DNA of 64,000 nt from Pelobacter propionicus DSM 2379 (lineage in GTDB: Bacteria > Desulfobacterota > Desulfuromonadia > Geobacterales > Pseudopelobacteraceae), in assembly GCF_000015045.1 (NCBI RefSeq), contig NC_008607.1, forward strand, positions 124,001-188,000, in the 5' to 3' direction. Both the position numbers and the translations under genes were made by a program. This document shows, piece by piece, positions 12,534 to 61,059 of the stretch (position 1 is the stretch's first letter; the number at the start of each line of letters is the position of its first letter). The notes under the pieces are model-generated. The model saw only the letters and a program-made list of their open reading frames with translations, was not told the DNA's origin and did not search any database.

Positions 12534-13286
12534 TTACCCCTTTCCGCTTTCCACGTTCAGACGACTTTTGTCGATCGTGATGTAGATAACTCGTTGACTG
12601 GATTCCAGGATGTTACTGCCCACCTTGCCGAAGAGAGCCTTGGCCTTTTCAGCCAGATCCGCAGGAATCCTGAATACAACGCGGCCATCCCTTTCGGCCA
12701 TCCGGACGGTTCCTAAGCCATTGAATTGAACGCTTTCGCCACCAATTTCGACTGCGGTAATCAACCGGAAATCAGGAATCTGGTTCACCAGGATCATCTG
12801 TTTGTTGAGCATGAAGATTTGCCCTGCGCGCGAGGTGCTTTCAGCCTTGAGCCTGTCGATTTCTTGTTTCAGAGATTCAGAGTCATCGCTTTTGGCAACC
12901 AAAGCGACAACCTTACCCTGGGGTTTGTTGTTCTCTTCGGGTTTGTCAGTATCACGTGGGTTTGTATCGCCTACGACAGGCGCTACCGGTGCAACAGTTT
13001 TCTGATCAGGGGTTTCAGGATACTGCTCTTTCTCGGGCCCGACATATTTTGAGTAGACATAACCTTCCATGCCATCGGCGAGGACCCTGACCTTTAGCCA
13101 TTTACCGTTCTTGGCTTTACCGAGGATCTCGACTTTTTCACCCTCCGGGTAAGCCTCAAGCGAAAGCGATTTGCTTGAGGCTTTCTTCCTGAGCTTGAGC
13201 ATGTTTCCGCTTATCACCCCTGTCTCCCCCCAAGCGGCAGAGCACCCCATGGCCAGCGCCAGCAACACAATCATTGTCTTTTTCAT
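12534..13286 (-). CDS. secreted SH3b-domain protein (250 aa)
   Basis: The signal peptide MIVLLALAMGCSAAWG is followed by a bacterial SH3 domain at about residues 22-85, with NMLKLRKKASSKSLSL, GEKVEILGKAKNGKWLKVRV and GYVYSKYVG. A Pro/Asp-rich linker, a short coiled coil (ESLKQEIDRLKAES) and a C-terminal beta domain follow. SH3b domains bind cell-wall peptides, so this is probably a periplasmic peptidoglycan-associated protein. It is first in the operon behind the 38-bp box at 13395-13432, about 110 bases upstream. ATG at 13286 is preferred to the frame start at 13292. Confidence 0.8.
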   Translation of the reverse strand: MKKTMIVLLALAMGCSAAWGETGVISGNMLKLRKKASSKSLSLEAYPEGEKVEILGKAKNGKWLKVRVLADGMEGYVYSKYVGPEKEQYPETPDQKTVAPVAPVVGDTNPRDTDKPEENNKPQGKVVALVAKSDDSESLKQEIDRLKAESTSRAGQIFMLNKQMILVNQIPDFRLITAVEIGGESVQFNGLGTVRMAERDGRVVFRIPADLAEKAKALFGKVGSNILESSQRVIYITIDKSRLNVESGKG

Positions 13287-13394
13287 AAACACTCCTTGCA
13301 GCTGGGCTTTTCATCGCATATTTGAGTCATTGCGATGAATTGCACCCTGCGAAATGAGATTTCTAGATTTTGAGGGAAATCCTCTCTACCTTAA

Positions 13395-13432
13395 TATCTG
13401 GCAAGGACTTAGATTATTTGGTGCAATTAAAT
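13395..13432 (-). promoter_or_regulatory. transfer-regulon box, copy 1
   Basis: On the minus strand it reads ATTTAATTGCACCAAATAAT, then CTAAGTCCTTGCCAGATA, identical to copies 3 and 4. The following TATTAA is a plausible -10. No -35 hexamer sits 17 bases upstream, suggesting activator- or alternative-sigma-dependent initiation. It drives the SH3/hypothetical/outer-membrane operon. Confidence 0.8.
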
Positions 13433-13853: not shown

Positions 13854-14351
13854 TTACCTCCCGGCCAGCGCCCCCAGCAAACCTACAATCATGCTAAGCT
13901 CAAGCTGGATATGTTGTGTATTCAGAAACCCTCTGAAACAGGTTATCGCTAAAAATACCACAATCAACCCAGCTGTAGTCAAGTCCTCACTTGGCGTAAA
14001 TGTTGTATACAGATTGAGCGCAACCCTCCTATTGCTCGTGGGCTTCAATCCAACAGGGATACCGGTTATGCTCAGACCATCCAGGAGAAGGTGAAAGATC
14101 ACTCCGAGCAACATGAAGAAGATCAGGTACAACACGATCGAGGGGGTGCGATACTCAAGAGCATAAAGTACTGCAGCCATGACCAGATATGGATACGGCC
14201 AGTGAGTCACAGTCCTGTGTTTGATCAACCCATTCAATTCAAGCACGTCCGGCAGCACTGAACCGGCCGCAGCCAGCCACGCAGACAAGAAACCGCCTGT
14301 AATCGAGTAGATGGCAATTCCGGTTATCATTTGGTGATTACGCCACCGCAT
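13854..14351 (-). CDS. DUF457/YdjM-like membrane-bound predicted metal hydrolase (165 aa)
   Basis: Integral membrane protein with about four helices. The metal-ligand pattern is NHQMITG near the N-terminus, GSVLPDVLELNGLIKHRTVT around residue 45, and FHLLLDGLSITG around residue 105. These His/Asp sites match the YdjM/DUF457 family of predicted membrane metal-dependent hydrolases, whose substrate is unknown. ATG at 14351 has AGGACGAGAA ahead and avoids overlap with the M23 gene, 11 bases upstream. It is probably co-transcribed with that peptidase. Confidence 0.75.
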   Translation of the reverse strand: MRWRNHQMITGIAIYSITGGFLSAWLAAAGSVLPDVLELNGLIKHRTVTHWPYPYLVMAAVLYALEYRTPSIVLYLIFFMLLGVIFHLLLDGLSITGIPVGLKPTSNRRVALNLYTTFTPSEDLTTAGLIVVFLAITCFRGFLNTQHIQLELSMIVGLLGALAGR

Positions 14352-15652: not shown

Positions 15653-18600
15653 CTATCTCCTCCTCTTTTGAACCGAAAACCCTTTCGAGGGTGACACTGT
15701 ACCAGCGTCTGCCGCAGTCGGTTTACTGCTATCTCTTCCTTTGAAAAATTCAGAGGGCATAATATTTTCATAAACATACCCTCGCGATGTATCCTTTGCG
15801 TTTGGTGACGCTACCTGCCCCCAAAAAACCAAGTCAGGGGCTACGGGAGATTGGTTTATTTTTTCCATTTCACTGCCCGCTGTTCCCATATTACCTTTCA
15901 CCGTATCCATATAACGCTGATATCCAGTTACATTGGGCACAGAAACACCCTGATGTGGATTGGCAGACATGATCTGTTGGCGAAGATTTGCCGGAGGACC
16001 GGCCGGCCGCGGCATTGCATGTTGGGTGTGATTCAAACTCGCTGTTGCCCCTGCAATAGTTCCCTGGACGCTCTCCCTGCTTGGCATAGTTGCGGTTGGC
16101 CCGGCAACAGCAGGAAGCCCCTCACCAGAGAGGCGCAAGCCGCGTTCCCCAATAAACTGGTTTTGCAGCTGCGATAATTGGCCTATTGAATCCTGAGTCC
16201 CCGCAGACGAAAGATTTTGAATATGATTTGCTGCCTTTACATCTCCCTCTATCCCACCTCCGAACTTATTACCCAACCAACTGACAAAACCCGCATCCAT
16301 CGACGTTTTTGATGCTCCAGACATTCGCACAGAGGACGTTCTCGCCTCTTCGAGCGTCTTGGTCCGCTGTTCAGAAGCTGATACTTGGTCGAGCGCGCTT
16401 TTCGTATTGGTAACCGCATGCGCCTCGCCAACTGACCGTTGGTTCTCAACGGACTTGTCGGTACTCCTCGCTGAAGACGTGCTGTCTTTCCAGGTTTCCC
16501 CAGCTTTTTGGGCAATCTGACGCGATTCATTATCGCCGAATGTCATGGTATAGACCTGGTTATCAGAAGTTTTGACAGAAACCGATTTTTCACTTCCCAT
16601 GCTACCGGTAACGCCTCCACCAGAACCAAGGAATTCAAGGGCTGCTTGGGCCTTTGCGACCACTTGTGACCACGCCCTACTACCTTTTTCGATTGTATTT
16701 CCGTGGCTATCTTTAATTGCATGCGCCTTGTCAACATTCTGTGAAATAGCTGTACCAATCGCTTTCGCAGTTTCATGCATACCCGACTTAACTGTTGAGG
16801 AGCGCTGAGCAAGCGAACTGAGGGCCGATCGAGTCGACGTGTTTGAAAGCGCATCCATAATATTCGATCCAGCGCTCTGGAGGTGGCTGGCGGTTTCAGC
16901 ACGCGAATCCGCAATACGCGATGTATATCCCTGCTCCTCAGCAGCAGATAGATCAAAGCTCTGATTGAATCCTGTCACTGCCTGCAAATTGCCATTCGAC
17001 CCCCAGGTCATTCTCATTGAACCCTTTTCGCCAGTAGTAGTCACGTCGTTACCGGTAACAACCTGCGCCATATTGAATCCACCAACGTTGCCGATGGAGT
17101 TCCCCTTCATACCGTCAATTGTCTTCCCGGCAAAAAAGGCATCTGCGGCCTGATCACCACTCCATCCGTTCTGGGCGGCCTGGGCCTGCAAACCTTGCAT
17201 TGTCGTATTGAATGCCCCGGGGTTCATCTTGAACATGCTCTGAATTCCCCTTAATGCTGAGTTCTGCATGCCCATCTGCCGGCCGATCTGCATACCGGTC
17301 TCCCAGTTTCCTACAGCACCCATATTGCCGGAAGTTTCCATCTGTCCCATCCCGGTCTGCAGACCATAGTAGTTGGGTATGCCTCCTGACTCAAAAACGC
17401 CTCCACTTGATTTAAGCCCATTCGAAGTGCTTCCTACCATATTTCCGTAAGCACCCTCTTCCCTGATAGCCATTGGTGAACTCGCCCATGCTGCCGTAGG
17501 AGCTCCAGCTGCAGACAGGCCTGTCACGGCTTGAGATTGGCCTACTATGTCCTCGGTGCGGCTTGCACCAATTCCACCCGCTGCGGCAATATGCCCCTGG
17601 AGGCTACTACCCATCTGAGTGATTGCATTTCCACCAAATTTAACTAACATACCGGTGAGCGCAGTCGACAGCACCAGGCCACTCATTCGCAGAGTCCCAA
17701 ACATGGCCAAGGCTTTTACCGACGCATTGGGAAAGAAATACAGAGCATCGAGACCCAGACCCTCATTCCTCACCTGACTGAAAACGCTATTTGCATACTC
17801 CATCGCAAATCCATGCAATATGGCATCAACCACGCCCCATGCCGTTAACCAGATGAAGAAACCAAACAAGATCGATGCAATTTTGCCCGACATCGGTGTA
17901 GGAAGAAAAATAATCAGTATCGGAATAAGAGCGATAGCAACAGCAGTCAAAACACCACGCAGAACCGGATAGTATTCATTGAATGACTTCATGGAACCGG
18001 AAACGTTTGTGAGGAATTGATAATTGCTTACTACTTGAGTGTTGCCGCTTTGGTAAGAGCTGTCTAGGCGGTTTTTGATAAATACCTGCTTTACAAATTC
18101 ATCAAGGGTAAGCGCTGAAAGACCAACAGTATCTTTTGCGTCTGTTACAGCCTGTTTGCATTGATTAAACTGTGCAGCATCAGATACATCATATCCCAAT
18201 TCAGTGCATACAGTTTCCATGTTGCCAGATAGTTCGGCAGGTGTCATATCAGCAACAATGGCTGTCCATGCATCAGTGCAATTTAGCGAATCGCCTTGAG
18301 AGTCGGTTGGTGATAAGTACAAAGTGTATATTGCAGGATTAGCTGCTTTTACGAGACTTGTTGAGAAGCTAGCAGGAGTGCGGCGCAATTCATCAATTGT
18401 CAGGTTAGATGCAGGATTATTGACAGCAAAGGTTACACAGTCTTTTAAATAATAATTCAGGTTTTGTTCAAGATATATGTTTGTCTTTGAAGATAATGGT
18501 CTGGTCGTAAGAGCATATAGTCCCAGAAAGCCTTTCCCGCCTGCTTGGGTTTGATATGAACCAATTGACCCAGAGGTAGAGACAATTTCAATAAGACCTC

Positions 18601-19027
18601 TTTCAATCAAATTGAATGTTCCTGCTACAAGAACAACTCCTTCTGGAACCTGAGTCACAAGCTCTGTTTTATTCATTACTTCGTCATAAACCTGCAAACT
18701 GCCCTTTGGGACGAAAAACGCAATGTACATGACAATTCCGATCGCCATAGGAACAGACCATCCCAGTATGCTTGTCTGGCCGCCGGATGCGATTTTCGTA
18801 TACACGGCTAAGCCAGTAAAGACTGCCGCCGAGATAATTACTGTATAAAACAAAGACTGATAACTGTTGTTTCCGAATATTGTAGCAATGAGCTTAAAAG
18901 CAGATACAACAGGCCCGAAACTTCCATAGCAGTAATATTCCATGGTTGTTGCCAAAGCAAGTGACGGTACTAAGCTTATTGCTACAAGTAAAGTCAGAAT
19001 AACAAATGTTTTGTTTTTGAGTCTCAT
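15653..19027 (-). CDS. traG: TraG, F-type mating-pair stabilisation / T4SS inner-membrane protein (1124 aa)
   Basis: The N-terminal 480 residues hold a signal-like segment and several membrane helices (LFYTVIISAAVFTGLAVYTK, MAIGIVMYIAFFVP, GVLTAVAIALIPILIIFLPT, ILFGFFIWLTAWGVVDAI), matching the TraG N-terminal domain. The remaining 640 residues are Ser/Gly/Gln/Ala-rich, low in hydrophobics and periplasmic. In F, TraG supports pilus assembly and, through its periplasmic part, mating-pair stabilisation and entry exclusion. It is longer than the 938-aa F protein. It follows the 246-aa membrane protein in the operon behind box copy 2. Confidence 0.88.
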   Translation of the reverse strand: MRLKNKTFVILTLLVAISLVPSLALATTMEYYCYGSFGPVVSAFKLIATIFGNNSYQSLFYTVIISAAVFTGLAVYTKIASGGQTSILGWSVPMAIGIVMYIAFFVPKGSLQVYDEVMNKTELVTQVPEGVVLVAGTFNLIERGLIEIVSTSGSIGSYQTQAGGKGFLGLYALTTRPLSSKTNIYLEQNLNYYLKDCVTFAVNNPASNLTIDELRRTPASFSTSLVKAANPAIYTLYLSPTDSQGDSLNCTDAWTAIVADMTPAELSGNMETVCTELGYDVSDAAQFNQCKQAVTDAKDTVGLSALTLDEFVKQVFIKNRLDSSYQSGNTQVVSNYQFLTNVSGSMKSFNEYYPVLRGVLTAVAIALIPILIIFLPTPMSGKIASILFGFFIWLTAWGVVDAILHGFAMEYANSVFSQVRNEGLGLDALYFFPNASVKALAMFGTLRMSGLVLSTALTGMLVKFGGNAITQMGSSLQGHIAAAGGIGASRTEDIVGQSQAVTGLSAAGAPTAAWASSPMAIREEGAYGNMVGSTSNGLKSSGGVFESGGIPNYYGLQTGMGQMETSGNMGAVGNWETGMQIGRQMGMQNSALRGIQSMFKMNPGAFNTTMQGLQAQAAQNGWSGDQAADAFFAGKTIDGMKGNSIGNVGGFNMAQVVTGNDVTTTGEKGSMRMTWGSNGNLQAVTGFNQSFDLSAAEEQGYTSRIADSRAETASHLQSAGSNIMDALSNTSTRSALSSLAQRSSTVKSGMHETAKAIGTAISQNVDKAHAIKDSHGNTIEKGSRAWSQVVAKAQAALEFLGSGGGVTGSMGSEKSVSVKTSDNQVYTMTFGDNESRQIAQKAGETWKDSTSSARSTDKSVENQRSVGEAHAVTNTKSALDQVSASEQRTKTLEEARTSSVRMSGASKTSMDAGFVSWLGNKFGGGIEGDVKAANHIQNLSSAGTQDSIGQLSQLQNQFIGERGLRLSGEGLPAVAGPTATMPSRESVQGTIAGATASLNHTQHAMPRPAGPPANLRQQIMSANPHQGVSVPNVTGYQRYMDTVKGNMGTAGSEMEKINQSPVAPDLVFWGQVASPNAKDTSRGYVYENIMPSEFFKGRDSSKPTAADAGTVSPSKGFSVQKRRR

Positions 19028-20955: not shown

Positions 20956-21020
20956 ATTTCCTCCAGTATCGTGAAATTATGAAGGGAGGCATTTTGACGC
21001 AAATATCCCCTCTACCCTAA

Positions 21021-21058
21021 TATCTGGCAGGGACTTAGATTATTTGGTGCAATTAAAT
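21021..21058 (-). promoter_or_regulatory. transfer-regulon box, copy 2
   Basis: Differs from copies 1, 3 and 4 at one position (CCCTGCC for CCTTGCC on the minus strand). It is followed by TATTAG as a candidate -10 and GTAGAGGGGAT as the probable start region. It drives trbI to traG. Confidence 0.82.
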
Positions 21059-35632: not shown

Positions 35633-36208
35633 CTATTTTGGTTCGTTGTGCCATATTTCGACGCGACGGTTTAACGGCTTTTTCTTGTATTTACCTGATT
35701 CTCCAAATCCACTGATTTTCAAAACACTGACTCCTTTTGAAATCAGATAGTCTGCAACTGTCCTTGCGCGTTTTTTAGACAGCGACAAATTATATTTGCT
35801 GCGGCCTATTGTGCATGTAAATCCGTCTATAACGATTTTTTTATTTTTGAAATCTAAAGTATTAAGCTGACTTTTCGATGCCTTGCTCAATCTATGAGAG
35901 TCAAATGTAAAGTTAACAACACCAAGAAGACTTGGCGTCTTTGTTTTATCTTCATTTTGCGGTTTGACATCACCAGCACTGATTTGATCTTCAGTGTTTG
36001 TCGAATAACGAACAGTTACGTTGTATATTGGATTTAGCTGACTATCTTTGCAGTCGCCGCAAACAACGAATACATCGTCGTTCATGCTTTTTGCTTCTTC
36101 GTCGTAGTTGTAGATGTAATCATGTTCTTTAATTAATTCAGTAGCCGACAGAGCTGGACTAGCCTGTGCTACCAAAACTACTGCCATCGTAATAAGTGTT
36201 TTTTTCAT
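35633..36208 (-). CDS. OmpA-like peptidoglycan-binding protein (191 aa)
   Basis: Signal peptide (LITMAVVLVAQASPALSA), a short N-terminal strand region, then an OmpA C-terminal domain at about 90-185. That domain has VNFTFDSHRLSKASKSQL, KIVIDGFTCTIGRSKYNLSL, SKKRARTVADYLISKGV and NRRVEIW. The peptidoglycan Arg/Asp positions are kept. It is first in the main pilus operon, only 19 bases after the box-3 core, so its message should have a very short leader. It may tie the transfer channel to the wall. Confidence 0.88.
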   Translation of the reverse strand: MKKTLITMAVVLVAQASPALSATELIKEHDYIYNYDEEAKSMNDDVFVVCGDCKDSQLNPIYNVTVRYSTNTEDQISAGDVKPQNEDKTKTPSLLGVVNFTFDSHRLSKASKSQLNTLDFKNKKIVIDGFTCTIGRSKYNLSLSKKRARTVADYLISKGVSVLKISGFGESGKYKKKPLNRRVEIWHNEPK

Positions 36209-36226
36209 AAGTGCCCTCTACCCTAA

Positions 36227-36264
36227 TATCTGGCAAGGACTTAGATTATTTGGTGCAATTAAAT
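36227..36264 (-). promoter_or_regulatory. transfer-regulon box, copy 3
   Basis: Identical to copies 1 and 4 over the 38-bp core. It is followed by TATTAG (candidate -10), then GTAGAGGGCACTT and the ATG. If initiation is seven bases past TATTAG, the leader is only about a dozen bases and carries the GAGGG ribosome site. It drives the OmpA-like, dsbC and traA-trbC genes. Confidence 0.82.
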
Positions 36265-38416: not shown

Positions 38417-39706
38417 TCACAAAAAAACCTTTTCTGCAAGTTGCAAGTACCCCATAATCTGCGTCTTCATTGGACCGATATATAATTCAGATTTCTCTAT
38501 CCGCTCAATAATTTCAGCCTGTCTTAATGCAGGCAAACCCAAATAGTATTCATAATATTTATCTTGCATCTGCAAGATCTTTGAATCCTCAGCTTCGTTT
38601 CTAGCTATATATGCATTGGTAATGTCGTCTTTCAAAGATTCTTTCAAAAGCCTCTTCTCTTGCAACAGTCTCTCTATTTCTTTGCGCTCACGGATTTCGA
38701 GGCCATAGTCATTCTCAAGTACTGTACGAAGATACCCGCCAGGGGAGGGGATAGGGGCTTGTTTTTTATCGTTAAATCGTTCAACAAAATATTGAATATT
38801 CGAAATTACATTTTCTTCACCACGCAGGTCTAACATCTTTTTCAACAATGGAACCACACCGCGGAGGGAACCAATCCCTTCAGGGAGCATAGCGCACAAC
38901 TCGGCAATCTGCTCAAGTTGATATGCTTCCGGAACAACCTCTACCTCTTCTATTCGAGAAAACGTGAAATCGAAGCCTGTTAAAGCTCCACGATTCCCAC
39001 GTTTGAGTAGCCTTACCTCAACCCTTACATCCGTTTTCTCATTGACTTCATTTACTGCCGGTTCAACAACGTGACGACGAAGATCCGTGGGAGCACTATA
39101 TTCTCCAACTTTAAGCCCCATGTAGTCTCGGAATTCTTCAAGGGAAAATTCTCGATGTTCATCAATGTGAGTCACACCAAGTTCATAAAGAGCTATCGAA
39201 TACAGAGACTTTAAACCACGAATGATTTTCAAGTCTATCTGAGTGTAAATACTGGGATTATTAAGAGCCTCATTGATCGTCGGTGCAAAAAAGAATGTTA
39301 CGCATCCAAATCGATTAATTCGCGCTTCAGATATCGGTACAAAACTGCGCCACTCCTGGAATTTGTCTTCATGGAACATATCATATTGCCAGGGTCTTTC
39401 CTGTAAACTCGTGAGAGCATTTTTAAGGAGATGGTTATGTGTAGCTCTCGTCCTGGTGAAGTTCCGTAGAAATTTTATGCTGGTTTGAAATTTGCCGTCT
39501 GGCGGTACGATACCGGATTTCATCTGTGCTCTTGCAACCATGAGTAGAGCACTGAAAACCTTCTCTTCGGTCGGCGTGGAGGCATGCGTACGATGAATGA
39601 TCGCATTATGTTTTTTAAGGATATAGTCTTCTGGGGCCATCTCCATCCCAGGAAGGTATTCCTGAACATCATTTTTTGCCCGAGGGGTTGGTTTGTCGTC
39701 TGCCAT
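38417..39706 (-). CDS. repA: Rep_3-family replication initiator 1 (429 aa)
   Basis: Two winged-helix domains of the RepE/Pi/Rep_3 type. Winged helix 1 covers about 30-165, with KHNAIIHRTHASTPTEEKVF. The second begins near 165 with SLYSIALYELGVTH, FSLEEFRDYMGLKVGEY and LRRHVVEPAVNEVNEKTDVR. A C-terminal helical extension of about 150 residues follows. ATG at 39706 has GGAGG six bases ahead. It reads away from the iteron-B array, as expected for an autoregulated initiator. It is related to the second Rep at 41212. Confidence 0.88.
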   Translation of the reverse strand: MADDKPTPRAKNDVQEYLPGMEMAPEDYILKKHNAIIHRTHASTPTEEKVFSALLMVARAQMKSGIVPPDGKFQTSIKFLRNFTRTRATHNHLLKNALTSLQERPWQYDMFHEDKFQEWRSFVPISEARINRFGCVTFFFAPTINEALNNPSIYTQIDLKIIRGLKSLYSIALYELGVTHIDEHREFSLEEFRDYMGLKVGEYSAPTDLRRHVVEPAVNEVNEKTDVRVEVRLLKRGNRGALTGFDFTFSRIEEVEVVPEAYQLEQIAELCAMLPEGIGSLRGVVPLLKKMLDLRGEENVISNIQYFVERFNDKKQAPIPSPGGYLRTVLENDYGLEIRERKEIERLLQEKRLLKESLKDDITNAYIARNEAEDSKILQMQDKYYEYYLGLPALRQAEIIERIEKSELYIGPMKTQIMGYLQLAEKVFL

Positions 39707-40091
39707 AAAATACCTCCATTTGAAGCAGACATATATCACCTCTGGAAAACGATCTCAACGACTTTCCACTTCATATCAAAGTTTTCCATACGTACCTCGG
39801 ACCCAAGTACAGCAACAGCAAATCAAGACATCTGCAGGAGTTTCCCTACTGATAAATAGCGATACCAAAACGTATGGAAAGAAGTGATACCACTCCTTTG
39901 ACAAATGAAATGTTTCCTTTTTACCACAACAAGTTACGCAACAATCGGTTCTTTCTTACTTTAAACGAACAAAAGACCATGGGCAAAATCATTCTACGCC
40001 AAGACAGAAGGTGTGAATGTTTTTTATTTATAATTGCGGGAAGTTACATCTTATTGATGTGATGCAAGGTTATCGTGGAAGGGACTTTCAA

Positions 40092-40527
40092 GGTATCACT
40101 TTTTTCCAGATGTAAAACCAAGATATCTTATTTTTCCATAGTTGCAGATATTACCTTTTAATAACGGATAGTTACATACATTCCAGGAGACATAACAAGG
40201 TATCTAGAGAGGGCCCAGCAAGGTATCTTTTTTTTCCACAGATGCCCCATGATCACTATCATAATTTTCCATAGCTAGAAATTAACCGTGTTAAGTCGAT
40301 AGGTTATAACCGAATATTTGACCATGTACGCGTACAGAAGGAAAACACAAGGTATCTTTTTTTTCCATTAATGGAAAAAGCCGTGTCACTATCACTTTTT
40401 TACAGATATCACTTTTTACCACAGGTCAGAGTATCAATTTCTTCCAGAGCATCAATTACATTTTTCCACCCAGTGTATCAATTTTTTCCATAGCTGGTAT
40501 CACTGTTTTCCTTTTTGCTATCACTAT
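40092..40527 (+). repeat. iteron family B: probable replication origin for Rep 1
   Basis: About a dozen direct, partly degenerate repeats of consensus GGTATCACTTTTTTCCATAG lie between 40092 and 40527, with further single copies (one inverted) at 39770-39885. The tract is AT-rich, has no convincing gene and separates the two divergent rep genes. The best copies start near 40092, 40120, 40221, 40351 and 40474. Confidence 0.82.
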
Positions 40528-41211: not shown

Positions 41212-42411
41212 TTGGAAGAACAAATGTCATTGGTGATCGGTGGAGTACCCATAACACCAGATTCATCATACGAGCTCAAGAAACATAGCGCGGTGACCCA
41301 GATCAGCAATCGCATATCACTCATGCAACGGAAAAGTTACAATCTGCTTCTTTATTTTGCACGAGAACAGGCTCTTAAAAATCCTGACCTGGAAATGTAC
41401 TCCGTGAACATCAATAAACTGAGATCCATTGGAGGGGTACTGATAAAAGACACAAAACATATCCGGGAATCGCTACGAGAATTAATGACCGTGGTTGTCG
41501 ACCACAACATCCTCGGAAAAGACAAGCAAGGAGATTGGGGTGCCTTTGTTTTGCTACCGGAAGTTAACGTCAAGAATAGTGAAATCACCTTTGCTCTCCC
41601 CCCCTCGATAAAAAATGCCCTACTCAACCCCAGAATGTACGCCCGCATAAATTTGGCGATTACACGAGGCCTGTCTTCCAAGTACGCACTAGCGCTGTAC
41701 GAGATGGCGCGAGACTACATTGCGGTCACAATACCTCGCATGACCCTGAAAACATTTCGGAAACTAATGGGAGTCGAAGACAGTCTCTATGTTAATTTTC
41801 CTGATCTGAGGCGTCGCGTTATCGAGCCCGCCATGAAAGAGATAAATACAAAAACTGACCTGCGAATTGAGATCGAATATATAAAGGACGGTAGAAAAAT
41901 ACTTGGAATACAATTTACAGCTACAGAGCAAAGAGATAAGCTGGATGATATGCTTATAGATGATGCACTGACACAAGTAATAGAACGAATATGCAATGTT
42001 CCAGAGCTATCAGATAATGATAAATTCATGCTATTGGTGCGAGGAAAATTAAAAGATCATGGACTTGATTATGTATTATCAAATATTGAGTATGCGTTGA
42101 CTAGAGCAAAACAGAACAAGGAAGCATATACAGTTGCTGCACTAGAAGAGGACTTCGCTGCTGGCGATAGAGCTAAGGCAACCTATATTAACAAAAGAGA
42201 AGTGGCTATCGCTGCACAAAGAGAAAAGGAATCTAGTGATGTAGAGACTGAATTCGAAATAAGAAAGAAAAAGTACATTGACTATTTCAATGCTCTAGAC
42301 GAAGACGATCAGCTGGAAATTATCTCACAGATCAGCGGTCATTATTACTCCGGCACAAGAGAATCAAGAATAGTGTCGTACTTGCAAAACAAAAGGGATA
42401 TTGTGCTCTGA
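41212..42411 (+). CDS. Rep_3-family replication initiator 2 (399 aa)
   Basis: The two winged-helix domains parallel Rep 1: YELKKHSAVTQISNRISLMQ near residue 24, SKYALALYEMARDYIAV, then MTLKTFRKLMGVEDSL and LRRRVIEPAMKEINTKTDLR. A helical C-terminal third follows. A TTG start at 41212 sits six bases after GGAGG; the ATG at 41224 is too far from any ribosome site, so TTG is chosen. Homology with Rep 1 is clear but distant, so they are probably two compatible replicons rather than a recent duplication. Confidence 0.87.
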   Translation: MEEQMSLVIGGVPITPDSSYELKKHSAVTQISNRISLMQRKSYNLLLYFAREQALKNPDLEMYSVNINKLRSIGGVLIKDTKHIRESLRELMTVVVDHNILGKDKQGDWGAFVLLPEVNVKNSEITFALPPSIKNALLNPRMYARINLAITRGLSSKYALALYEMARDYIAVTIPRMTLKTFRKLMGVEDSLYVNFPDLRRRVIEPAMKEINTKTDLRIEIEYIKDGRKILGIQFTATEQRDKLDDMLIDDALTQVIERICNVPELSDNDKFMLLVRGKLKDHGLDYVLSNIEYALTRAKQNKEAYTVAALEEDFAAGDRAKATYINKREVAIAAQREKESSDVETEFEIRKKKYIDYFNALDEDDQLEIISQISGHYYSGTRESRIVSYLQNKRDIVL

Positions 42412-42501: not shown

Positions 42502-42780
42502 TTAATCTGGAGTAAAACTCAAGAAGTCATCAATATTAAGCTTTCTATTTTCTTTAGTCACGGGGGCTTCCTTTTTAGCAGCACTCTTCTCTCGCTTAGG
42601 AGAGGGATCGGGTGATATCCCTTTAGACATGATCTCTATGGAGGCCTGTCCGTCTTTTGTGCGCAGATAATGGCTCAGCGCGTCAGTTACCAATCTAGCC
42701 ATTTTACGGCCTTTCCTGGTCTGCTCTAAGGCCTTTACTGTAAGCGGATCAGTAATGTCGACCTTAATCACGAATTTCAT
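42502..42780 (-). CDS. ParR-like partner of the actin-like partition protein (92 aa)
   Basis: Small basic protein. KFVIKVDITDPLTVKALEQT, then RKGRKMARLVTDALSHYLRT, resembles a ribbon-helix-helix DNA-binding N-terminus. A disordered basic linker and a short C-terminal acidic motif (LNIDDFLSFTPD), suitable for binding the filament end, follow. Its ATG overlaps the stop of the actin-like gene by one base. It should bind the repeat cluster at 43727-43852. Confidence 0.68.
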   Translation of the reverse strand: MKFVIKVDITDPLTVKALEQTRKGRKMARLVTDALSHYLRTKDGQASIEIMSKGISPDPSPKREKSAAKKEAPVTKENRKLNIDDFLSFTPD

Positions 42781-43703
42781 TACCCCTCCAGGAATGACCT
42801 GAACCCACGAGCATTGGCGTATTCCGGCTCAGGCAGGATTTTAACCTCGATTTTATCTGAACCGATCTTACCTCTCAAATGATTGCTCCCCCCGCCAAAG
42901 AATATAATGGTTTCAAGTGGGCGAGTAATGCTGATATTGGCTCGCACATCTTCCATAATCTCCGCAAGAATGGCTTCCATGTATTCACCTGCCGCAGATT
43001 TTATTTCAGGCAGCAAGTCGATTTTGTCAGTACCATTAGTAATATAACCCTGCTCCATAAGCCTTGAAAGTTCAACAGGAGTCATTGACAACCCTGTAGT
43101 AAAGTCGGCAATCTTTGGCATTAAATAGTTTGATGCCAGCTGAGATATGCCACGTTTATATAAGGTGTCAGTAAATACAACTTTCGATCTTTTAGGATCG
43201 AACAAAGTATAGATCAGAGTGTTAAACCCCAGGTCAATGCCCAATACAAGGCCTGTTTTCTCCTTACCATCTGTTATCATATATGAACGAATCCCACCAA
43301 TACCTTGCGGAAGAACAGTAACATCCTTGACTCGCTCCGATATAAGAGAAGTTTTAAGCGCATCAACAGCACCACCTTTTATCTTTGACTGCTCTTCATA
43401 AAATTGCACAGGGAGACCGACCCCAACCTTTACTGCTCCCTTTACGCCTGCTTCATCAAGACACTTCTCCAGAAAAAAACGATAGTGCTTGACCAGATGT
43501 TGAGGTGTCCGCAAATAAGCAACACCACCTGGATTATCCAGGGCATCCTCTCCGATCAACGGATCTTCTCCGCCTCCCCTGTTCTGGTAAACAGAGAGGA
43601 CCCGCCCCTTTTTCCCTCCTGATATCCATTTGGCAGAGGAAAAACCCAGATCACAGACGAAGCATTTCACATCATTTTTCGGTTCAGCTATCGGTTCAGC
43701 CAT
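42780..43703 (-). CDS. parM: ParM/Alp-family actin-like plasmid segregation ATPase (307 aa)
   Basis: Actin/Hsp70-superfamily fold. Phosphate 1 loop FVCDLGFSSAKWISGGK, phosphate 2 loop LVLGIDLGFNTLIYTLFD near residue 165, and adenosine loop IFFGGGSNHLRGKI near residue 265. The family polymerises into dynamic filaments that push plasmid copies apart. ATG at 43703 follows GGAGATAATTG. It is followed by the small RHH protein, giving the usual parMR order behind a repeat-rich centromere. This is the second partition system in the window. Confidence 0.88.
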   Translation of the reverse strand: MAEPIAEPKNDVKCFVCDLGFSSAKWISGGKKGRVLSVYQNRGGGEDPLIGEDALDNPGGVAYLRTPQHLVKHYRFFLEKCLDEAGVKGAVKVGVGLPVQFYEEQSKIKGGAVDALKTSLISERVKDVTVLPQGIGGIRSYMITDGKEKTGLVLGIDLGFNTLIYTLFDPKRSKVVFTDTLYKRGISQLASNYLMPKIADFTTGLSMTPVELSRLMEQGYITNGTDKIDLLPEIKSAAGEYMEAILAEIMEDVRANISITRPLETIIFFGGGSNHLRGKIGSDKIEVKILPEPEYANARGFRSFLEG

Positions 43704-43726
43704 CAATTATCTCCTTTGTTAACCTA

Positions 43727-43852
43727 TTGGTATGCCTACAGGTATACTAACTAGTATACTTGGGCGAAAAAGTCAAGTCAGAAAACAAATAAAGTATACC
43801 TAGAAGCATACTTCTAGGTATACCAACAAGCGTACCCATAGATATACAAGAA
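43727..43852. repeat. GTATAC-type repeats upstream of parMR (candidate parC)
   Basis: At least seven short repeats around GGTATACY/RGTATACC, in both orientations, lie in 126 bases, for example near 43730, 43740, 43754, 43793, 43806, 43815, 43833 and 43847. They sit directly upstream of parM, where ParR-binding centromere repeats normally lie and also serve as the promoter operator. Confidence 0.7.
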
Positions 43853-43856
43853 TGTG

Positions 43857-44516
43857 CTAAGTATCTGACATGATTCTATCAATCGCGTCAGATAGCCGAA
43901 TTATACCTTTGTGAATCCACCAAACTCGCTCCATGTCCTTCAGAGCTTCGCCCCGAGTGCGCCCAATCCCCTCAACGTCATCTTCGCCATAGATTGAGGC
44001 CACGAAATGCTGTCCGGTATTGCTCCAGGCAATTGACACTACCTGCTTAGTTTCTGGCTGAAGCAGGCCAGTTTTAAGCCTAATAATCGGTTGGTTCGTG
44101 ATGGCGCTGATTGGGAAGATCTTTTCGTACTGATCGGGGAAATCGCGTCTGAATGCCCTATGGATTTGATCAGCCATTTCGTCACCAGGAGGTGGGGCAC
44201 TGGCCTGGAGTGCGTCCGTAACCACAACAGGATCAAAACCCCAAACATGACACCACATGTAAAACGAAAACTGTTTGGTAATGAAAACATCTGCGACCTG
44301 CTCCGGTAGATTATTTTTGCGAGACCGACCTCGACTCATGGGGGGAAAGATGCCTTCCCTGCGGAGCACCGTGTAAAAATAATCAGCCTTGGTGCTGCCG
44401 GTAACGCGTGCGATTTCCATGATACTCAAACCCGATTTATATGCTTCAAAAATCAGATCGCAATACTTCTGTCTTGCCTCCTCTGTCCTGCCCTTGATAC
44501 CGAAGTCTGCCGCCAT
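43857..44516 (-). CDS. hypothetical protein with N-terminal HTH-like region (219 aa)
   Basis: Residues 10-60 (RQKYCDLIFEAYKSGLSIME, then IARVTGSTKADYFYTVLRRE) resemble a helix-turn-helix of the resolvase/Trp-repressor type. The remaining 160 residues are unrecognised, ending in a beta-helix piece with ALKDMERVWWIHKGII. ATG at 44516 is chosen, with GGGAGG upstream. It lies beyond the parMR centromere, same strand. It may regulate copy number or partition, but that is only position. Confidence 0.5.
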   Translation of the reverse strand: MAADFGIKGRTEEARQKYCDLIFEAYKSGLSIMEIARVTGSTKADYFYTVLRREGIFPPMSRGRSRKNNLPEQVADVFITKQFSFYMWCHVWGFDPVVVTDALQASAPPPGDEMADQIHRAFRRDFPDQYEKIFPISAITNQPIIRLKTGLLQPETKQVVSIAWSNTGQHFVASIYGEDDVEGIGRTRGEALKDMERVWWIHKGIIRLSDAIDRIMSDT

Positions 44517-44556: not shown

Positions 44557-44652
44557 AGTATTATACGTATAAAATATAATACTTATTTTCAGCCAGAGAT
44601 CAAAAAAATAAAATATTTTATTTATTCTAAATATAATACTTATTTTTACCCC
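44557..44652 (-). promoter_or_regulatory. AT-rich direct repeat region upstream of the HTH protein
   Basis: AAATATAATACTTATTTT occurs twice (about 44571-44589 and 44631-44649), separated by an A/T tract. The spacing and composition suggest tandem promoters or operators for the gene at 43857-44516. The rest of the 508-base gap (44653-45024) shows a (GTT)n run at 44909-44929 and the terminator described separately; I see no gene. Confidence 0.4.
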
Positions 44653-45024: not shown

Positions 45025-45642
45025 TCAGGCGGCAGACTGTCTTCGAGGTGAGGATTCGCTGTGAGGCCTGATTGGTGTGGCAGAAGATAGATTTTCGATT
45101 GATACGATCTGTAAGGAGAAGAGCCTGGCGATCTTGCTGCGTACTCGCTTGAACATGGCCACTGCGGATGGTTCCGTAATACCGATTAAAGCCCCGGCTT
45201 CGTCCATGCTGTGATAACCGGACTTGCTCAGTCCAAGGAGAGCGGTTAAAAACCTCTGCTCTTTTGGTGTCAGGTAAGGCTTGACGGCCCAAAATACGGA
45301 TTCGGATTTGGCCTGAGTCGACTTGTCAGCCGGTGGTGCATTCCCTGTAAATGCCTCATTGATTTCGCAGCAGAGGTACGAGGGGATCGACTCTGACCCC
45401 CTGTGGTTGCCTGGATTAGGAACTATCTCACGTATCAGTAGTTTGTATTGCGCCCAAAATGTCATCTCGAACTTTGCGGCCAGGGGCTCCGTGGAAATAA
45501 ACACAGATGAGAGCGCTGCCTGGTTCGCGCAGCTGATCAGGTCCTCAACGTCATAAGGGCAGCAGCCGAGAAACTGTTTTGAGAACCCGATGATGGCTTT
45601 TCGGTTCTGCTCGACCCATACAATTGCGTCGTCAAACGTCAT
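45025..45642 (-). CDS. sigma-70-like transcription factor (205 aa)
   Basis: Looks like a divergent ECF-type sigma factor. Region 2-like YDVEDLISCANQAALSSV, with FEMTFWAQYKLLIREI, covers about residues 30-80. After a linker, region 4-like LTPKEQRFLTALLGL, then SMDEAGALIGITEPSAVAMF and KRVRSKIARL, covers about 125-180. A 25-residue Ser/Pro/Arg tail follows. ATG at 45642 has GGGGGAGG six bases upstream. A CAACA-N3-TGTTG palindrome lies 25 bases ahead and two perfect CRP-type sites lie 200-320 bases ahead. It is a candidate for the factor reading the five 38-bp boxes, but that is inference. Confidence 0.6.
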   Translation of the reverse strand: MTFDDAIVWVEQNRKAIIGFSKQFLGCCPYDVEDLISCANQAALSSVFISTEPLAAKFEMTFWAQYKLLIREIVPNPGNHRGSESIPSYLCCEINEAFTGNAPPADKSTQAKSESVFWAVKPYLTPKEQRFLTALLGLSKSGYHSMDEAGALIGITEPSAVAMFKRVRSKIARLFSLQIVSIENLSSATPIRPHSESSPRRQSAA

Positions 45643-46043: not shown

Positions 46044-47411
46044 TTATGAGGATTTATTAGCCTTCAGGCGCTTGTTGACGGCCGTTCTGGAGATGCCGAG
46101 CATATCTGCCATCACGCCTTGGTTACCAGATGCTCTGCGACAAGCTTCACTGATGAGGATATCTTGAACTTCTGATAGGGTGGGGAGTCTTGGTCCGGTG
46201 AATTTGACCAACTGGGTATCGTGAGGAAGGATGGTTGCGTAGTCTGATATTCTTTCTTTGAAGGTCTCCATGGAAAGAACACCAGACGAGTGAGACAGGA
46301 CAGCCTCGAAGACCATATCGCGCAATTCCTGCACATTGCGCGGAAACTCATATACCCCAAGAAGGGTTAGCAACTCTGGAGGTATTGTAGGCCTCGATTT
46401 GCCGTAGTTCCTCGAAGCCTCTTCCAAAAAGCAGTCCAATAATACCGGCAGATCTTCTCGTCTCTCTCGCAAAGCAGGAATTTCGACGGTATGCGAACTG
46501 AATTTCATCATGAGTTGTTTCATGCCCGAAATTTCATCGATCGGGACACCTGCAGACGCAACAATGCGACCCGTGAACCATTTGGACTTCAAGGATTGCA
46601 GTGGTGAGAACTGGGATGATTCCAGCAGATTAGTAAGGAAGCATTCGCCAGACCGGGTGAGATGCTCTATACCCTCCAAATAAATCGTCCCTCCTCCTGC
46701 CTTCTCCAGCAAACTATCACCTCTGCGGTATCCGCTTAGGGCATCGGGAAAAAAATCGCCATGTTCTAATATTTTACAGTAAACAAACTGACCTTCACGC
46801 TTACCGGTAGCGTGGAGGGCCTTAGCAAAAGTGGCCTTCCCTGTGCCATACTCCCCTGTAAAAAGAAGGGGTTCGGAAGATTGGGCAATTGCTTCCAAGT
46901 AACGAAAGATCCGTAACATTCGGAGGGATCTGGTCCATAATCCAGCAAACGATCCTCCCACAGAAACCATCTGACTGGTCTCATTCAGAAAACCAGAATT
47001 TAGTAGACGATTTTCCTGTAGGGTTTCCCGATGTTTTATCGCTCGCAACACGCCTGACAGAACTTGGTTTATATCAACTGATTTTACAAAATAGTCAAAA
47101 GCTCCGCGTTGCATACACCTGACGGCTATGTCAACTTGGTCGCTCCCGGTCAGCAAAATAACCGGAATGTCCGGATACTCTGTTTTGATGTTCATGAGCA
47201 ACTGATCACCCATGATACGGGGCATTGTAAAATCCAGAATGACGATCGTGACCGGTCGGGACACTAAAATTGACATAACTTCTTCTGGCTTGCTACAGGG
47301 GATCACGTTCGTAACCCCAAGCTTCCTCTTCAACTGAAACGAAAAGCTTTTGAGCCAAATTTCATCATCGTCAATTACTAAAACCGGATTTATCGGAAAA
47401 ACGCCACTCAT
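46044..47411 (-). CDS. NtrC-like response regulator with degenerate AAA+ domain (455 aa)
   Basis: The receiver domain (about 1-120) is sound: VLVIDDDEIW, phospho-Asp in VTIVILDFTMPRIMGD and Lys in YFVKSVDINQ. The AAA+ domain keeps Walker A (FTGEYGTGKATFAKAL), but the GAFTGA loop that contacts sigma-54 is replaced by a GYRRGDSL stretch and the Walker B LFLDE is IYLEG. A Fis-type HTH closes the protein (EACRRASGNQGVMADMLGIS). It is therefore probably not a sigma-54 activator and may not hydrolyse ATP; TyrR/HupR-like repression or sigma-70 activation is more likely. ATG at 47411. Confidence 0.8.
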   Translation of the reverse strand: MSGVFPINPVLVIDDDEIWLKSFSFQLKRKLGVTNVIPCSKPEEVMSILVSRPVTIVILDFTMPRIMGDQLLMNIKTEYPDIPVILLTGSDQVDIAVRCMQRGAFDYFVKSVDINQVLSGVLRAIKHRETLQENRLLNSGFLNETSQMVSVGGSFAGLWTRSLRMLRIFRYLEAIAQSSEPLLFTGEYGTGKATFAKALHATGKREGQFVYCKILEHGDFFPDALSGYRRGDSLLEKAGGGTIYLEGIEHLTRSGECFLTNLLESSQFSPLQSLKSKWFTGRIVASAGVPIDEISGMKQLMMKFSSHTVEIPALRERREDLPVLLDCFLEEASRNYGKSRPTIPPELLTLLGVYEFPRNVQELRDMVFEAVLSHSSGVLSMETFKERISDYATILPHDTQLVKFTGPRLPTLSEVQDILISEACRRASGNQGVMADMLGISRTAVNKRLKANKSS

Positions 47412-47536
47412 TAAACACCTGTAGTAAAGAGTCAAAAATAAAAATTGAGCGGGAATGTGCCACAGTGCGCCATTAATTTCAATACATTCTGCATATTTTA
47501 TGGTATCTAGTCCATTTAAGACAAAGAGCTATCAAT

Positions 47537-48109
47537 ATGCCACTACTGACTACCACAGAGATCATAGAGAGACTCAAGGACGTATTGAACGTTAAAAGTG
47601 ATGGCGAAGTCGCCGACTTTCTGCGTATTAAACGCCCTGCTCTATCCATGAAGAAGACTAGGAACAGTTCTATCGTGGATGACGTTCTGCACCTGGCGCA
47701 GCGAATGGAACTCGATCTGAACCAGATCCTGATCAAGGACAGTAAAGCCTTCCCGGTTTTTTTTCGAGACGAGAGTGGAAACAAAACTAATGAAATACAC
47801 CTGAGCAGGGCTTTCCTTGAAGCCAGGGGACTAGATCCTGAATCTCTGATCGTCATAAATCAAGAGGGCCAGCTTTTTGACAATCTCCACCTGGTCGATA
47901 CACGAGTGACTAGGATCAACTCAGATGGCATTTATGCTATTGCCACAGAAAATAATGTACTCCTGAAACAAGCGACCATCCGGCTGGATGGGTCCATCCT
48001 TTTTCCAAGCCGTATTCCAGAAATCCCCGCAGAAAACATAGATAAATCCTCAGCTAAAACCCTCCATGTCGTCGGTCGAACAGTACTGATGCTGGCCCCC
48101 CCAGATTAG
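47537..48109 (+). CDS. CI-like repressor with HTH and degenerate S24-type domain (190 aa)
   Basis: The N-terminal phage CI-type HTH is TTEIIERLKDVLNVKSDGEV, then ADFLRIKRPALSMKKTRN. A C-terminal beta domain (about 95-185) follows with the S24/LexA layout (SLIVINQEGQLFDNLHLVDT, DGIYAIATENNVLLKQATIR). The catalytic Ser-Met of S24 peptidases is not apparent, so RecA-stimulated self-cleavage is doubtful. It sits just upstream of box 4 and the third transfer operon. That is the position of the repressors that hold ICE and plasmid transfer off. Confidence 0.72.
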   Translation: MPLLTTTEIIERLKDVLNVKSDGEVADFLRIKRPALSMKKTRNSSIVDDVLHLAQRMELDLNQILIKDSKAFPVFFRDESGNKTNEIHLSRAFLEARGLDPESLIVINQEGQLFDNLHLVDTRVTRINSDGIYAIATENNVLLKQATIRLDGSILFPSRIPEIPAENIDKSSAKTLHVVGRTVLMLAPPD

Positions 48110-48129: not shown

Positions 48130-48167
48130 ATTTAATTGCACCAAATAATCTAAGTCCTTGCCAGATA
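48130..48167 (+). promoter_or_regulatory. transfer-regulon box, copy 4
   Basis: Same 38-bp core as copies 1 and 3, here on the plus strand. TATACA follows as the -10-like hexamer. The probable leader starts with an 8-bp hairpin (GTATGAGG 48172-48179 with CCTCATAC 48188-48195). It drives the transglycosylase-to-TraH operon. Confidence 0.82.
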
Positions 48168-48199
48168 TACAGTATGAGGGGGATTTGCCTCATACACCT

Positions 48200-48724
48200 A
48201 TGCGACGACTAATTCCAATCATACTGAGCCTAATTTTGTCACCCAATGCCGGATGGGGATTTTGTTTCGAGGAAGCTGGGCAAACGTATGGAATCTCCCC
48301 CGAGATTCTCTACAACATTGCGAGTGTGGAATCAGGCTTCAACCCTTATGCAGTCAACAAGAACAAAAATGGGAGTTATGACTACGGTCTCATGCAGATC
48401 AATTCGATCTGGGCAAAGAAATTGGGGACCGAAAGATGGAAGGCGCTATCTGACCCATGCACCAATGTCATGACTGGAGCCTGGATTCTTTCCCAGTGTA
48501 TCTCAAGCTACGGATACACATGGAGAGGAATTGGCTGCTACAACAGCCGCACCCCTGAACTCAACAAGATCTATGCGCGGAAGATTTTCGCGTCAATTGT
48601 AAAGCATCGGAAACTGGCCACCCAAACATCGCTCATCGCGTCAGCAAAAAAACCAGAGGAACTGAGCGAACAAGGCCAGATTACTCCATGGGAAGAGATC
48701 ATCAGTCATGATGATTCCAAATGA
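48200..48724 (+). CDS. lytic transglycosylase, VirB1/Orf169-like (174 aa)
   Basis: Signal peptide (LIPIILSLILSPNAGWG), then a single SLT domain. Catalytic Glu in NIASVESGFNPYAVN, then DYGLMQINSIWAKKLG and RGIGCYNS. It cleaves glycan strands to let the T4SS cross the wall. ATG at 48200 gives a proper signal peptide; the longer frame (TTG at 48158) would begin inside the box. No good ribosome site lies directly ahead, and the GAGGGGG is part of a leader hairpin. It overlaps the NusA-like gene by 17 bases. Confidence 0.88.
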   Translation: MRRLIPIILSLILSPNAGWGFCFEEAGQTYGISPEILYNIASVESGFNPYAVNKNKNGSYDYGLMQINSIWAKKLGTERWKALSDPCTNVMTGAWILSQCISSYGYTWRGIGCYNSRTPELNKIYARKIFASIVKHRKLATQTSLIASAKKPEELSEQGQITPWEEIISHDDSK

Positions 48725-60272: not shown

Positions 60273-60751
60273 TCCAACGAGTCTTCAATACGTCTGTCTA
60301 TTTATTCCTGTTTGTGTCAATCGGGATTCTTGCTCCTCAGGAGGTAAAGGAGATATCGCCTTTTGCTTGGGGGTGGGTCGAGGGAAAGCTAGGATGGGAT
60401 CTTACTGGCTTTTGGTTTTCCCCTTTCGGAGGAAACGGCAAATGCCGGATAACCAACTCTCAGGTGGCATGGAGACTACCTGAGAGCAAGATAGTCTTTG
60501 GTGAGGTATCGCCACCAGGAAGACGCCCATATCCTCATCTGTGGGTGGAGAATAGAGGTCAAATTGTAGATGGGGTTTGCCCGCCCGAAGTCCCTGGCTG
60601 CAGTAGCCGGCGCCGCTTTGCGACAATCAATCCAACTAGCCTGACAATCGAGGCGCAGAACCCTTTGTCCGAAAAGGACCAAAAGAGCATAGCCTGGGGA
60701 TTAGATTACTTGCAAGGTTTGAAATCCTCTTCCGTAGCGACTGGTGGTTAA
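60257..60751 (+). CDS. hypothetical protein overlapping the MCP 3' end (164 aa)
   Basis: An N-terminal hydrophobic helix ([18 protein letters not shown]) suggests a signal or anchor. The body has [40 protein letters not shown], two Cys ([12 protein letters not shown]) and a basic loop. It overlaps the MCP gene by 16 bases and the minus-strand small-protein gene tail-to-tail by four. I do not recognise it. A secreted or periplasmic domain with one disulfide is likely. Confidence 0.55.
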
Positions 60752-60969
60752 TCGCACTCGACGAAAGGGGAGCGCAACCTCAGCATTCTCTTGATGGCCT
60801 GCAGAAAACGGCTTTCCCTGTCGATCATCAAGACTGTGCAGACAACCAGACTCACCAGAGCCAGTAACCGGTAATCTCCTTGATACCCGAATCCGCTAGT
60901 TCCGTTTCCCGCATAAAGATAGGACACTGAGCTCGCCCAGGCCAACGCCAACAACACTTTCTTCAACAT
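60748..60969 (-). CDS. small membrane protein under a transfer box (73 aa)
   Basis: Signal-like N-terminus (KKVLLALAWASSVSYLYA), a short Gly-rich loop, a second hydrophobic helix (LLALVSLVVCTVLMI) and a basic cytoplasmic tail. It is preceded by box copy 5, so it appears to be expressed with the conjugation genes although it lies far from them. Entry exclusion, pilin chaperoning or immunity would fit its size and location; none is shown. Confidence 0.65.
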   Translation of the reverse strand: MLKKVLLALAWASSVSYLYAGNGTSGFGYQGDYRLLALVSLVVCTVLMIDRESRFLQAIKRMLRLRSPFVECD

Positions 60970-61021
60970 GCATAAACCCCTTGCCGGAGATTGAGAGCCA
61001 CGAAAAATGCTCTCATAATAA

Positions 61022-61059
61022 TATCTGGCAAGGGGTTTGATTATTTGGTGTAATTAAAT
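61022..61059 (-). promoter_or_regulatory. transfer-regulon box, copy 5 (most diverged)
   Basis: Reads ATTTAATTACACCAAATAAT, then CAAACCCCTTGCCAGATA, four differences from the consensus. TATTAT follows as a good -10, then a 7-bp leader hairpin (TGAGAGC/GCTCTCA, 60992-60998 with 61009-61015). It lies between mucR and the small membrane gene and drives the latter. Confidence 0.72.

Follow-up and report, generated by a model that had tools for sequence, protein, structure and literature searches.

We identify P0001, a sigma-like protein encoded on a plasmid of Pelobacter propionicus DSM 2379, as a good candidate, judged from sequence, for the switch that turns on DNA transfer. Its gene lies in the window, a 64,000-nucleotide stretch of contig NC_008607.1 (positions 124,001 to 188,000) that was analysed as a whole. 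Four observations underlie this proposal: the P0001 family is homologous to sigma factors, it is associated with an F-type transfer system, a 31-nt box is repeated upstream of operons on the plasmid, and across related elements the type of box follows the sigma tree. On balance, we favor the view that P0001 is a dedicated conjugation sigma factor that would read these boxes.

A sigma-like gene between partition and transfer genes

The first-pass annotation described a gene at 45025-45642 on the minus strand, placed between the partition genes and a transfer operon, with region 2 and region 4 signatures at the right spacing. All of this holds. The open reading frame is real and intact, running from ATG to stop over 205 aa, with GGGGGAGG a few bases 5' of the ATG. 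Next to an actin-like partition gene (42780-43706) lies a linked helix-turn-helix (HTH) gene, followed by the sigma-like gene, by genes for a response regulator and a CI-like regulator, and by the transglycosylase/TraD operon.

43857-44516, minus strand: linked partner gene P0002, with N-terminal helix-turn-helix-like helices and a C-terminal HicB/UPF0150-like sheet, by prediction
45025-45642, minus strand: sigma-like gene P0001, 205 aa, with region 2-like residues ~14-73, a linker at 77-106, and region 4-like residues ~107-176
46044-47435, minus strand: NtrC-type response regulator, with a close homologue only on plasmid pSD among the elements compared
47537-48109, plus strand: CI-like helix-turn-helix regulator, with a homologue on pSD

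In P0001, helices are predicted at 32-49 and 55-73 for region 2 and within 107-176 for region 4, and residues 77-106 are predicted to be disordered.

Several repeats are found in the same part of the plasmid. Two copies of AAATATAATACTTATTTT, at 44572-44594 and 44629-44651, stand 5' of the partner gene and are perhaps its own operator. Several GTATAC-containing repeats, noted by eye at 43730-43850, lie 5' of the actin-like partition gene and perhaps form its centromere. Iteron-like repeats occupy 40089-40493, flanked by the Rep3-type initiator genes at 38417-39739 and 41212-42411.

Sigma factor homology at the family level

As a single sequence, P0001 matches no Pfam or NCBIfam model up to E = 1, gives one weak match only in a PHROGs search (phrog_4161, E 0.0061), and retrieves nothing useful from the PDB by phmmer. 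Since P0001 alone is without a Pfam or NCBIfam match, its sigma reading depends on its relatives. A single-protein search found these in 38 of 277 genomes of Desulfuromonadia and found none in the viral contigs or phage records searched. A homologue with 47.7% identity is encoded on pSD of Geobacter anodireducens, the only other public plasmid found to carry a close homologue, and one further relative resides on the host's own chromosome. One relative (L036) extends into a C-terminal stretch that resembles, by eye, an XRE-type HTH.

A sigma-70 profile search, suggested by the first-pass annotation, succeeds for the family: in an alignment of 23 members, 22 match the sigma70-ECF model TIGR02937 (best E 1.2e-13), whereas P0001 alone does not. 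Sigma70_r4 is present in 20 of the 23 among the matches listed (Pfam, best 25 of 30). No Pfam region 2 model appears among the best 25 of 30 matches of the family alignment; a profile match to 9isn covers 32-175, and the P0001 helices are predicted at the expected place. Searched against the PDB, the profile from the same 23-member alignment finds RpoD region 4 at 9e-6 and, across both domains, a single ECF sigma factor (9isn) at 0.004. Invariant positions are kept across the family in both the region 2-like and region 4-like parts.

The AlphaFold2 model of P0001, of moderate quality (mean pLDDT 69.8, pTM 0.50), predicts two helical domains, sigma2-like and sigma4-like bundles, flanking a disordered linker. 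Among the 50 PDB matches listed by Foldseek for this model, nearly all are sigma-factor chains (best probability 0.98, best E 0.015). VIA-align of the region 4-like part gives, for example, 4g6d at Z 8.0 and an rmsd of 1.9 over 62 residues, where a Z of about 8 is common for helical folds and non-decisive for helical bundles. Profile matches, structure model, and Foldseek support the initial sigma-like reading of 45025-45642 at the level of the family. We consider homology of the family to sigma factors, and of P0001 through its family, to be well supported by these sequence comparisons.

Association with F-type transfer systems

The link between the sigma-like gene and the transfer boxes, which the first-pass annotation had only inferred, gains comparative support, in part from co-occurrence of the gene with the transfer system. 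We scored 46 of the 277 genomes as TraC-positive, on the basis of a match to the window's F-type TraC at E 1e-30 or better; this test did not start from the sigma-like gene. The sigma-like family is present in 36 of the 46 TraC-positive genomes versus 4 of the 231 TraC-negative ones, where family-positive denotes the 40 genomes with profile matches above ~60 bits, a cut-off set after viewing the list. The 10 TraC-positive genomes without the family count against a dedicated sigma factor.

The sigma-like gene and its partner are found together near an F-type tra operon on pSD, on a contig of G195, in the host's chromosomal element, and on two contigs of G257. Tra or other element genes occur near the family member in all 23 loci fetched from genome contigs, loci that were retrieved with family members as query, so that their tra association is biased in a way that the TraC test is not. 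One further gene, mid153, is absent from five of the 23 loci; we note that L089 is a short contig from which missing genes may have been cut off.

Type-A boxes upstream of plasmid operons

A 31-nt sequence, here called the type-A box, occurs in five copies in the window and in none of 100 shuffles.

13393-13423, minus strand: type-A box 5' of an SH3-domain gene (12534-13292)
21019-21049, minus strand: type-A box 5' of an operon with a TraG-like gene (15653-19027)
36225-36255, minus strand: type-A box 5' of the main tra operon (OmpA-like 35633-36208, DsbC-like, TraL, TraE, TraK, TrbI/TraB-like, TraC, and further genes)
48139-48169, plus strand: type-A box 5' of the transglycosylase/TraD-like operon
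61020-61050, minus strand: type-A box 5' of a small 73-aa gene
60748-60969, minus strand: gene for a small hydrophobic 73-aa protein, 3' of the fifth box; pSD has a counterpart at 14025-14255 that is missing from the listed annotation

No further copy occurs elsewhere in the host genome, and the host chromosome has none at up to 3 mismatches. The boxes do recur on pSD, in keeping with the expected co-occurrence of gene and box across plasmids: four diverged copies, with scores of 28.7-50.5 versus 8.4 for the next site, stand 5' of the tra operon, the transglycosylase/TraD operon, and two others. A contig of G257 bears one more, weaker copy. No type-A box was found on the other contigs searched from G257, G195, and G197, and viral contigs yielded no exact one.

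The first-pass annotation had read the box as a -10-like element without a -35. It is correct that no consensus -35 is present, but a fully conserved CACCAAA occupies the -35 place, 18 nt 5' of GATATT or AATATT, so that conserved blocks stand at both promoter positions across an 18-nt spacer. A promoter reading of the tra box is in some tension with its surroundings. The Shine-Dalgarno sequence begins ~6 nt after GATATT, leaving little room for a normal start site, and tra transcripts would therefore be almost leaderless. Just 3' of two boxes, by eye, there are short inverted repeats (48170-48200, TATGAGG/CCTCATA; 60985-61019, TGAGAGC/GGCTCTCA) that could form hairpins at transcript starts.

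Boxes conserved where the gene is missing had been named in advance as evidence against the link, and the comparison does not clearly provide them. On L064, a contig from the fragmented assembly of a 92%-complete genome, a strong type-A box (33.4 versus 5.9 for the next site) is accompanied by the partner gene, and no close homologue of the plasmid's sigma-like gene was found in that assembly. A second box type, described below, has at least one match in 32 of 239 gene-negative genomes.

Box types follow the sigma tree

Other members of the family sit beside other box types, which lends the gene-box link further comparative support. G195 carries a different 37-nt box in two copies, 5' of the tra and transglycosylase/TraD operons. 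Chromosomal elements carry a type-C box, ACCT(T/G)CCCCCC-N4/5-GAT(A/T)(A/T)T. In the 23 loci, 30 of 32 type-C boxes stand directly 5' of ompA-like or ParM genes, and the remaining two (L085, L087) point towards a trfA-like gene. The host genome has exactly three type-C matches, all on the chromosome, where they precede the ParM gene and the tra and transglycosylase operons of the host's own element.

A slightly wider type-C pattern matches 60 of the 277 genomes. With gene-positive defined as the 38 genomes from the P0001 search, at least two matches occur in 26 of 38 gene-positive versus 5 of 239 gene-negative genomes, and at least one match in 28 of 38 gene-positive ones, to be set against the gene-negative count given above. 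Six stretches with boxes from gene-negative genomes (L137-L142) were inspected: in four the box adjoins ParM, transglycosylase, or ompA/tra genes, and in two no element gene lies alongside. In type-C boxes only ~16 nt separate the beginning of the box from GATWAT, a distance that does not accommodate a classical -35, and a single mechanism would therefore have to cope with dissimilar layouts. A conserved block closer to the -10 suggests a different contact.

When box types are placed on the sigma tree, 8 changes are needed, which is the minimum, versus 20.5 when labels are shuffled; the tree holds 31 hand-picked rows with other members left out, and box types were labelled by eye, including a separate label for L093 and a type-D label for five elements with a C-rich block. 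Because the genes of an element are all co-inherited, agreement of box type with the sigma tree cannot alone name the reader.

A leader RNA in chromosomal members

Most chromosomal members have a two-hairpin leader that includes an intrinsic terminator and whose end lies 8-15 nt ahead of the sigma-like start codon. Examples are L003 (10972, minus strand; G000:C3:265897-265976), L065, L066, L077-L099, and others, and GGCACGGCC and GGCAAAGCCGG are invariant among them. A covariance model built from 19 copies of the leader gives 19 matches of at least 48 bits in 166 genomes, and a comparison of coordinates places every one of them immediately ahead of a sigma-like gene; the remaining matches score 36 bits or less. 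The leader was not found in the window or in the pSD and G195 stretches searched. Its terminator hairpin is clear, and an aptamer is unsupported by the covariation term from RNAalifold (only -1.08). No Rfam family reached the gathering threshold in any of six sources, and a more permissive search of one leader-bearing stretch gave no fitting family. We infer that these chromosomal members may control the sigma gene by attenuation. In L065, L066, L099, and L149, the leader also precedes the tra operon; these elements carry the sigma-like gene but no such box before tra, which speaks against the sigma-like protein as reader of the boxes.

Proposed role of P0001 and alternative readers

We propose that P0001 is a small member of the sigma-70 family with an ECF-like layout, made up of sigma2 and sigma4 alone, which the element would carry as its own transfer sigma factor. 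Once made, it would associate with host RNA polymerase and take it to the five boxes, so that the mating-pair, coupling-protein, and accessory operons come on in concert. Within a box, CACCAAA would serve at -35 and GATATT as -10, separated by an 18-nt spacer with CCTTGCCA at its end. In related conjugative elements of Desulfuromonadia, the sigma factor in use would be a diverged one, paired with a box that has diverged as well. Polymerase binding, direct reading of the boxes, and activation by P0001 are steps that we infer.

The linked genes are not fully separable as box readers, and the partner remains a serious rival. It might be a box-binding activator in the manner of SetCD/AcaCD, with the sigma-like protein acting together with it or elsewhere. 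The partner adjoins the sigma-like gene in 22 of the 23 loci, its predicted HTH-like helices and HicB-like sheet would be in keeping with such a role, and on L064 it is present at 41.7% identity together with the type-A box, with no sigma gene seen. Foldseek gave no confident whole-protein match for it. Weighing against this possibility, which we consider unlikely, a partner homologue went undetected in L143-L148, six elements that have both tra and the sigma-like gene, although divergent partners could have escaped; five of the six keep a C-rich block at the start of tra, and in L148 no clear tra start was found. We think that the partner is probably an accessory regulator. The adjacent NtrC-type or CI-like regulator could also bind the boxes, and both have pSD homologues (67% and 58% identity, respectively). 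We rank the response regulator low because close homologues are missing from most of the elements compared. NtrC-type regulators are expected to carry a GAFTGA motif, and this protein reads GYRRGDS at the corresponding segment; the box is also unlike the sigma-54 consensus. We regard a role for either regulator as improbable. With close homologues of the response regulator mostly missing and the partner undetected in some elements, no candidate is as constant as the sigma-like gene, although the searches themselves began from it.

A host sigma factor, for example of the FliA/sigma-28 type, might instead read the boxes, leaving the sigma-like protein unconnected to them. The FliA/sigma-28 consensus is TAAA-N15-GCCGATAA, which the box resembles with CAAA-N14-GCCAGATAT. 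This similarity does not extend to pSD, which has GCCAAATATT instead, or to other elements, whose boxes are quite different, and the lack of type-A boxes on the host chromosome makes a host reader a slim prospect. Slimmer still is the idea that P0001, though related to sigma factors, has lost the ability to bind RNA polymerase and works instead as a DNA-binding or anti-sigma-like regulator: its divergence is such that by itself it matches no sigma model, yet the family conserves invariant positions in both sigma-like parts, and we give this reading very little credence.

Returning to a dedicated sigma factor, the data raise a broader possibility on which we are evenly divided. A family of conjugative plasmids and integrative elements of Desulfuromonadia may be governed by its own sigma factor, co-diverging with an element-specific box so that two such elements could share a cell and still have distinct transfer regulons, and with the sigma gene gated by a dedicated two-hairpin leader in most chromosomal members. 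Most detailed knowledge of how conjugation is controlled comes from enterobacterial and Gram-positive elements. If true, a dedicated sigma factor acting at several boxes would explain how whole transfer regions switch on simultaneously in Geobacter-type elements, and would open a way to address gene flow between these environmental bacteria. The sigma and box sets would then represent an orthogonal sigma/promoter series made by evolution.

Comparison with known systems

The F-type tra clusters of G. lovleyi SZ, the P. propionicus chromosome, and the 202-kb pPRO1 were described in PMC3403914. These are very probably the same transfer systems as here, the window's contig being 202,397 bp long; the word 'sigma' does not occur in the main text of that paper. 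Among titles and abstract openings, a literature search retrieved no description of a sigma factor for these elements.

P0001 shares with ECF-type sigma-70 factors (TIGR02937) a small size and, by prediction, a flexible linker and a restriction to region 2-like and region 4-like parts. It differs in that P0001 itself falls below detection, no anti-sigma gene was recognised, and box layout varies among element types. Element-borne sigma factors are already known: SigN (ZpdN) of the Bacillus subtilis plasmid pBS32 has promoters on its own plasmid (PMC6751061). As described there, SigN induction leads to cell death after DNA damage, whereas the boxes reported here precede conjugation genes.

For SXT ICEs and IncA/C plasmids, SetCD/AcaCD are described as FlhDC-like master activators (PMC4207636). 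No FlhC or FlhD model appears in the general Pfam/NCBIfam results for P0001 or in the Pfam results for its family. By that description, the two systems differ in the type of protein, FlhDC-like there and sigma-like here, and would share an organization in which an element encodes its own master regulator and carries several copies of one box before its transfer operons.
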